Shown here: in pieces, positions 3,076-60,913 of the stretch
How the letters are laid out: every line of letters begins with the position of its first letter
Numbering within the stretch: the first letter of the stretch is position 1
Source: Pelagerythrobacter marinus
GTDB taxonomy: Bacteria; Pseudomonadota; Alphaproteobacteria; Sphingomonadales; Sphingomonadaceae
Assembly: GCF_009827515.1 (NCBI RefSeq)
Contig: NZ_WTYO01000006.1
Span: forward strand, 1 to 64,000
DNA length: 64,000 nucleotides
Reading direction: 5' to 3'
The notes under the pieces: model-generated
What the model was told of the DNA's origin: nothing
What the model saw: the letters and a program-made list of their open reading frames with translations, nothing else
Database searches by the model: none
Made by a program: the position numbers and the translations under genes

Positions 3076-3701
3076 TGTTCGTCTTCCGCCCCGTCGATCC
3101 AGGCCTGCATCCATTCGTGTTCCCACACCGCCTCCATGTACGCGCGGGCGAAACCGGGCACCGCGATCCCGTAAGTGACGAAGCGCGAGACGACGGGGGC
3201 GTAGAACACGTCCGCCGCGCCGAACGTGCCGAACAGGAACGGCCCGCCCTTGCCGAACCGGGCGCGCGCCTCGGCCCAGAGCTGGAGCACGCGCACGATG
3301 TCGTCGCGCGCCGCGTCGCTGAGGCCCACGCCGTCGAAGCGCTTGCGCACGTTCATCGGGCATTCGCTGCGCATCGCCATGTACGAGCTGTGCATTTCGG
3401 CGACCATCGACAGCGCCATGCCGCGCGCCGCGTCGTCCCGGGGCCAGAAGCGTTCGCGCCCGACCTTGTCGGCGAGATAGTCCATGATCGCCAGGCTGTC
3501 CCAGATCACGGTCTCGCCGTCCCACAGCACCGGGACCTTGCCCGAGGGCATGATCTCGCCCGATTCGCGCTTGAGCGCGGCCCAGTCGTCGCCGCCGATG
3601 TTGACCGTCAGCTCCTCGAACGAGAGGCCCGACTGCTTGAGCGCGAGCCAGGCCCTGAGGCTCCAGCTCGAATAGTTCTTGTTGCCGATGATCAGCTTCA
3701 T
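3036..3701 (-). CDS. Glutathione S-transferase family protein
   Basis: A 221-residue cytoplasmic protein of the GST fold. The N-terminal thioredoxin-like half (to about residue 80) begins KLIIGNKNYSSWSLRAW, where the serines lie at the glutathione-activating position, and contains the cis-proline motif GKVPVLWDG followed by ESxAI-like WDSLAIMDYLA. The C-terminal half is the helical domain. The exact substrate is unknown; members of this subgroup are annotated as plain GSTs. It is the first gene of a two-gene unit with the S1/P1 nuclease, whose start lies inside its 3-prime end. No functional link between the two is evident. Confidence 0.9.
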   Translation of the reverse strand: MKLIIGNKNYSSWSLRAWLALKQSGLSFEELTVNIGGDDWAALKRESGEIMPSGKVPVLWDGETVIWDSLAIMDYLADKVGRERFWPRDDAARGMALSMVAEMHSSYMAMRSECPMNVRKRFDGVGLSDAARDDIVRVLQLWAEARARFGKGGPFLFGTFGAADVFYAPVVSRFVTYGIAVPGFARAYMEAVWEHEWMQAWIDGAEDEQWVIEQYETAPRV

Positions 3702-39917: not shown

Positions 39918-39953
39918 CGCCCCGCAATCGAGAAACGCCCCGCAATCGAGAAA
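39918..39953. repeat. Perfect 18-bp tandem duplication before the aminotransferase
   Basis: 39918-39935 and 39936-39953 both read CGCCCCGCAATCGAGAAA. The repeat abuts the ribosome-binding site of the aminotransferase gene. Confidence 0.92.
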
Positions 39954-57878: not shown

Positions 57879-57893
57879 GCAAGAGGTGTGCCA
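57879..57893 (-). promoter_or_regulatory. Sigma-54 promoter of the transglycosylase-flhA-fliA operon
   Basis: On the minus strand TGGCAC, five bases, TTGC: a perfect -24/-12 pair. The predicted start is about 25 bases before the TTG start codon. Confidence 0.9.
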
Positions 57894-59198: not shown

Positions 59199-59213
59199 GC
59201 AATCGTCGTGCCA
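59199..59213 (-). promoter_or_regulatory. Sigma-54 promoter of flgA
   Basis: On the minus strand TGGCAC, five bases, TTGC, identical to the consensus, 61 bases from the flgA start and just after the end of the MotB-like gene. Confidence 0.9.
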
Positions 59214-60340: not shown

Positions 60341-60476
60341 CGAAATCTCCTCGACCCGAAAGAACGCCCGCCGCGCCGTGCCATTCAGCCCCCGGCGGAC
60401 ATTTGCCGCTTCCGGCAATCGCTTGCCGGCCCCGGCTGCCGCCCCCCCCGGTGACATCGCCGTCGCGGGACGCGAC

Positions 60477-60533
60477 TGGCACGCGCTTTGCGGAAACTGG
60501 CACGTGCTTTGCGGAAACTGGCACGCGCTTTGC
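60477..60533 (+). promoter_or_regulatory. Three tandem sigma-54 promoters before flgB
   Basis: TGGCAC, five bases, TTGC occurs three times: 60477-60491, 60498-60512 and 60519-60533. The copies are exactly 21 bp apart, two turns of the helix, so all face the same way. Spacer bases are GCGCT, GTGCT, GCGCT. The third copy lies 32 bases from the flgB ATG. Confidence 0.93.
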
Positions 60534-60565
60534 AAGAACGGCGGCGAACACGTCAGGAGACTGTC

Positions 60566-60913
60566 ATGAGCGAAGGCCTTTTCGGAATTCACGGTGCGGC
60601 GCTGGAGATCAGGGCGCAGCGCATGGGCATGCTCGGATCGAACATCGCCAATGCGGCGACCCCCGGCTACAAGGCGCGCGACATCGATTTCGCCGCCGCG
60701 CTGGAGGCGAAGCTGAACGGTGCGGAAGGCGAGCAGGCGATCGGATCGGCCACCCGCTACCGCGTCCCCGTCATGCCCAGCCTCGACGGCAACACGGTGG
60801 AAATGGCGAGCGAGCAGGCCGCCTTCGCCGAGAACGCCGTGGCCTATACCGCCACGCTGGGTTTCCTGCGCGGCCGGGTCGAAACCCTCACGCGCGCGAT
60901 CAAGGGCGAATGA
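60566..60913 (+). CDS. flgB: Flagellar proximal rod protein FlgB
   Basis: A 115-residue rod subunit at the base of the axial structure. The conserved motif NIANAATPGYKARDIDF near residue 27 and the C-terminal helix ending LTRAIKGE identify it. The ribosome-binding site AGGAGA precedes ATG 60566. It is the first gene of flgBCDEFG, behind the triple sigma-54 promoter, and overlaps flgC by four bases. Confidence 0.95.
   Translation: MSEGLFGIHGAALEIRAQRMGMLGSNIANAATPGYKARDIDFAAALEAKLNGAEGEQAIGSATRYRVPVMPSLDGNTVEMASEQAAFAENAVAYTATLGFLRGRVETLTRAIKGE

Follow-up and report, generated by a model that had tools for sequence, protein, structure and literature searches.

The flgB operon of Pelagerythrobacter marinus raises the question of how a flagellar sigma-54 promoter came to be present three times over, and whether the three copies act alike. 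A pattern search of the window (the whole 64,000-nucleotide stretch of DNA that was analysed) identified three exact matches to TGGCACNNNNNTTGC on the + strand: a distal site, P1 (60477..60491, TGGCACGCGCTTTGC, then G; predicted start 60503), a middle site, P2 (60498..60512, TGGCACGTGCTTTGC, then G; predicted start 60524), and a proximal site, P3 (60519..60533, TGGCACGCGCTTTGC, then A; predicted start 60545). A preliminary description of this DNA had claimed exactly this, namely three exact TGGCAC-N5-TTGC sites before flgB at 60477, 60498 and 60519 with a 21-bp period. Tandem Repeats Finder and an alignment with congeners delimited a 21-bp tandem array of 2.8 copies formed from the promoter (60475..60533, + strand), which had 94% matches at period 21 and, with a score of 111, was the top array of the window. 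In total, the window contains 12 sigma-54 sites with at most one mismatch, compared with 3.9 expected, and none of 100 shuffles reached 12. A chance origin of the triple array is ruled out by these shuffles and the Tandem Repeats Finder score. The ten core bases are identical in P1-P3, such that GG at -24, GC at -12 and the fixed TGGCAC-N5-TTGC spacing recur three times, and the 15-bp sites differ from one another at one base only, a C/T in the 5-bp spacer of P2. The 5' flank of P1 is GCGAC and that of both P2 and P3 is GAAAC. It had been proposed that the repeat kept both boxes intact while the spacer varied by one base; the cores do match and one C/T does differ, but this does not indicate selection, since a young array would show the same by chance.

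The array precedes flgB (60566..60913, + strand; TIGR01396 above cut-off), the first gene of a rod/hook operon that comprises flgB, flgC, flgD and further rod/hook genes, with flgC- and flgD-type domains encoded 3' of flgB. The sequence features a probable flgB ribosome-binding site, AGGAGA (60555..60560, + strand), and flgB is divergent from an upstream MotA/ExbB-type gene. For comparison, single exact sigma-54 sites are found before flgA (59199..59213, - strand), where the site is kept in all congeners, and before the lytic transglycosylase/flhA genes (57879..57893, - strand). Genome-wide there are 11 exact sites, among which likely sigma-54 promoters elsewhere are one oriented away from a pspF-like activator gene and another before a glnB/glnK-like start, where both names are a reading of the sequence and neighbourhood. 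A profile search detected one full rpoN gene in the genome (Sigma54_DBD, E 6.7e-67 at C14:45861). The assignment of P1-P3 as good candidate sigma-54 promoters is therefore supported by an encoded RpoN and by the single sites that relatives carry at the same place. Leaders from all three predicted starts, each placed 12 bases after the -12 GC, fold no better than shuffled sequences (z 0.8 to 1.0), and the idea that the longer leaders form a regulatory RNA structure thus has no support.

A single flgB-upstream sigma-54 site was found in 6/6 other species of the genus, aligned to P3 and 47-49 bp before the ATG. P3 itself lies 47 bp from the flgB ATG, as in G002 and G003, and so occupies the place of the nearest relatives' single promoter. 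All 16 further family members with a readable flgB upstream region also feature one site (an exact one in 13, a single mismatch in two and a more degenerate form in one), as does Qipengyuania citrea, the closest named FlhA match among plasmid records (74%). When 399 family genomes from 96 genera were searched for two exact sites 1-20 bp apart, the only hit was the P. marinus genome, the species being represented by one genome in this comparison, and the triple promoter was ruled out as a conserved family trait. The congener alignment showed approximately 42 extra bases in the array genome, and the triple state is therefore derived. Given a single site in all relatives and a tandem arrangement in one of 399 genomes, the array is, as judged by comparative alignment, a conserved promoter that expanded recently and in this lineage only. 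The view that single sigma-54 promoters are the rule before flgB was thus upheld across the six congeners and 16 further family members, and the copy count in related genomes that the preliminary description had suggested returned a single copy in all relatives examined. Its corollary, that one copy in all relatives would mark the array as a sequencing artefact, did not hold up, as the pattern points to a lineage-specific origin instead.

The flanks of the ancestral-type promoter offer an explanation for the period. In both nearest relatives, GAAA is present on either side of the single promoter, exactly 21 bp apart, and the internal junctions of the array have the sequence TTTGC-GGAAAC, which is what pairing of the right-hand with the left-hand GAAA would leave. 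This suggests that replication slippage between flanking GAAA repeats set the 21-bp period, which would account for it with no need for selection on helical phase; the spacing probably stems from GAAA microhomology as a by-product and was not chosen for its phase. A 4-bp flanking repeat is weak evidence of slippage by itself, because two more distant relatives also have 4-bp repeats at 21 bp. A slippage origin is further supported by a genome-wide excess of duplications: 31 exact tandem-duplication loci of at least 12 bp were counted in 0.9 Mb of this genome (C8:1-400000, C9:1-400000 and C13:1-100000), whereas 1.6 Mb from four congeners held 7, an approximately eightfold difference (binomial p about 1e-8), and simulated sequence with the same dinucleotide make-up yielded no exact tandem duplications of at least 12 bp. 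The duplications are mostly coding, with only some intergenic, and their lengths are mostly multiples of three, which indicates that selection has acted on them and that assembly noise does not explain them. Both mutS and recJ are present and score above cut-off in 7/7 genus genomes, which rules out the loss of either gene as the cause of the excess. A perfect 18-bp duplication at 39918-39953 ends 7 bp before a called gene start. The earlier idea that this strain builds promoters by slippage therefore requires adjustment: the genome is prone to short tandem duplication (31 versus 7 loci), but most duplications are coding and the tendency is not specific to promoters.

Upstream of the array is a candidate enhancer, TTGCCG-N4-CGGCAA-N4-TTGCCG, which consists of two overlapping palindromes (60403..60428, + strand) and is conserved across the genus and several genera beyond it, including in Q. 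citrea. The distance from the end of this block to TGGCAC is 43-45 bp in 8/9 relatives measured, 53 bp in the other and 42 bp in Q. citrea, meaning that it falls within 42-45 bp in 9/10 relatives. The promoter-to-ATG distance in relatives is more variable (46 to 68 bp), and the enhancer-promoter spacing therefore looks constrained. The corresponding distances to P1, P2 and P3 are 48, 69 and 90 bp, such that P1 roughly retains the enhancer distance and P3 exactly retains the gene distance. It had been claimed that every copy shows the same helical face, and P1-P3 are indeed in mutual helical phase; however, this phase is 3-4 bp off the usual enhancer-promoter phase of the relatives, and the 21-bp period probably reflects the GAAA repeats. 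The block was not found near the other exact sigma-54 sites of this genome, which rules it out as a general element of such sites.

A candidate for the protein that would act at this block is encoded approximately 29 kb from the array in the same flagellar region, with a flagellin gene on one side and fliF on the other (C13:89456-90796; L126:7456-8799). This protein combines a domain for sigma-54 interaction with a DNA-binding end of the Fis type and is 88-90% identical across all congeners. Its top NCBIfam match is FlbD, at 334 bits compared with a cut-off of 750, and the match starts at profile position 83; no receiver domain is recognisable. We therefore refer to it as FlbD-like only, given the sub-threshold score and the lack of a match over FlbD model positions 1 to 82.

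The individual copies are not of equal quality. The base after TTGC (-11) is A in P3 and G in P1 and P2, compared with T or A in 19/19 promoters of relatives. The published sigma-54 consensus has W at this position (PMC2725144), and the closed complex is stabilised by early melting in which the -12/-11 bases are involved (PMC3844500). The G at -11 in P1 and P2 probably follows from the duplication junction. When scored against a matrix of the relatives' promoters (mean 29.6), P1, P2 and P3 reached 24.8, 21.4 (the lowest) and 25.6, respectively, which places all three at the low end of these promoters, where part of the gap reflects a spacer change common to all copies and a matrix built from the relatives themselves. 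Three equal promoters are unlikely, because P1 and P2 carry a non-consensus -11 base. This tempers the preliminary proposal that the repeats could increase output or provide alternative starts: the cores are exact, but an equal contribution from each is not expected.

Collectively, these data favour a recent, lineage-specific triplication by slippage in which P3 provides the main start and P1 and P2 are weaker, overlapping and mutually exclusive sites, a reading to which we assign a probability of roughly two in three. Slippage between GAAA repeats 21 bp apart, in a duplication-rich genome, would have tripled the single promoter, and RpoN polymerase could probably bind any copy, with activation from the palindromic block at 60403-60428 by the FlbD-like protein. 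The footprint of sigma-54 polymerase is larger than 21 bp, so one copy would be occupied at a time. P3 would be the most likely main start, because it sits at the ancestral distance from flgB and carries a consensus -11 base, while P1 and P2 may offer weaker alternative starts, or places for loading, to the polymerase for which the copies compete; their influence on output would be modest. The main start could instead be P1, since its 48-bp distance roughly keeps the ancestral enhancer spacing (42-45 bp).

The closest competitor to this division of labour, with somewhat less than even odds, is that a single copy is the promoter and the other two are either silent relics or binding sites for RpoN polymerase that slow or help the active one. 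The -11 G of P1 and P2 fits this, and sites beside a sigma-54 promoter have been discussed as helping or repressing it (PMC3844500), but the ten core bases are intact in every copy and at least binding would be expected. Adaptation for higher output, in which three equivalent promoters on one face of the DNA raise the chance that one is occupied and activated and thereby flgB expression, is unlikely. In its favour, each core is an exact match and the copies lie in phase with one another, but such a booster is difficult to reconcile with the -11 G in two copies, with scores at the low end of the relatives' promoters, with P2 and P3 lying 69 and 90 bp from a block that is 42-45 bp away in 9/10 relatives, and with an array that no relative conserves.

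This same absence from every relative could be read as a sign of an assembly or sequencing artefact, which we consider extremely improbable, as the 59-bp array is shorter than an ordinary read, its copies differ (the C/T in P2 and the unlike outer flanks), and assembly error would not be expected to produce the numerous other short duplications of this genome, whose lengths are mostly multiples of three. It is also improbable, although less so than an artefact, that the array is a variable-number tandem repeat whose copy number shifts by slippage among cells or strains to tune or switch motility. If this were true, each step would shift the flgB operon start two helical turns with respect to the enhancer, and motility would be controlled at a sigma-54 promoter in a lineage where short tandem duplications arise at a raised rate.

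The triplication by slippage can be set against known promoters. The single RpoN-dependent flgB promoter of relatives (the congeners and the Q. citrea plasmid, L278) shares the gene, core, palindromic block and place with the array and differs in copy number (one versus three) and enhancer distance (42-45 bp versus 48, 69 and 90 bp). The triple promoter is a real, lineage-specific variant of an ordinary flagellar promoter. Caulobacter sigma-54/FlbD promoters with ftr sites are comparable in serving flagellar structural genes with an FlbD-like activator and a palindromic upstream element, whereas the putative activator here has no recognisable receiver domain and scores below the FlbD equivalog cut-off. 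To our knowledge, the Caulobacter promoters are single copies. No published precedent for tandem sigma-54 promoters was found in a literature search. A scan of public genomes, which may leave out records of this genome or near relatives, identified 75 stretches with two exact sites 3-9 bp apart, many of which are coding or satellite repeats, and no triplet before flgB. Some of these pairs lie directly 5' of genes, which shows that closely spaced sigma-54 pairs exist: examples precede genes for a periplasmic binding protein (L058 and L071), a luciferase-like monooxygenase (L061, L076 and L086), pilN (L055), motB (L059) and fliK (L064). They resemble the array in having two cores 18-24 bp apart just 5' of an open reading frame, but they are mostly pairs, none precedes flgB, and they are candidate promoters by sequence. 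Rows of three near-consensus sigma-54 sites, spaced 19-25 bp from one another, were also observed at L077:2077-2135 and in L078 (minus strand, near 3600), from an alphaproteobacterial MAG and Bradyrhizobium sp. Y36.

The array alone is of modest interest, to which the near-constant enhancer distance among relatives and the abundance of duplications in this genome add somewhat. With an eightfold excess of duplications, this genome is a candidate for studying why some lineages accumulate short tandem duplications. In addition, three overlapping promoter copies in one lineage, compared with one copy at a nearly fixed distance from the block in its relatives, amount to a natural experiment on the response of a sigma-54 promoter to its copy number and its distance from an enhancer.
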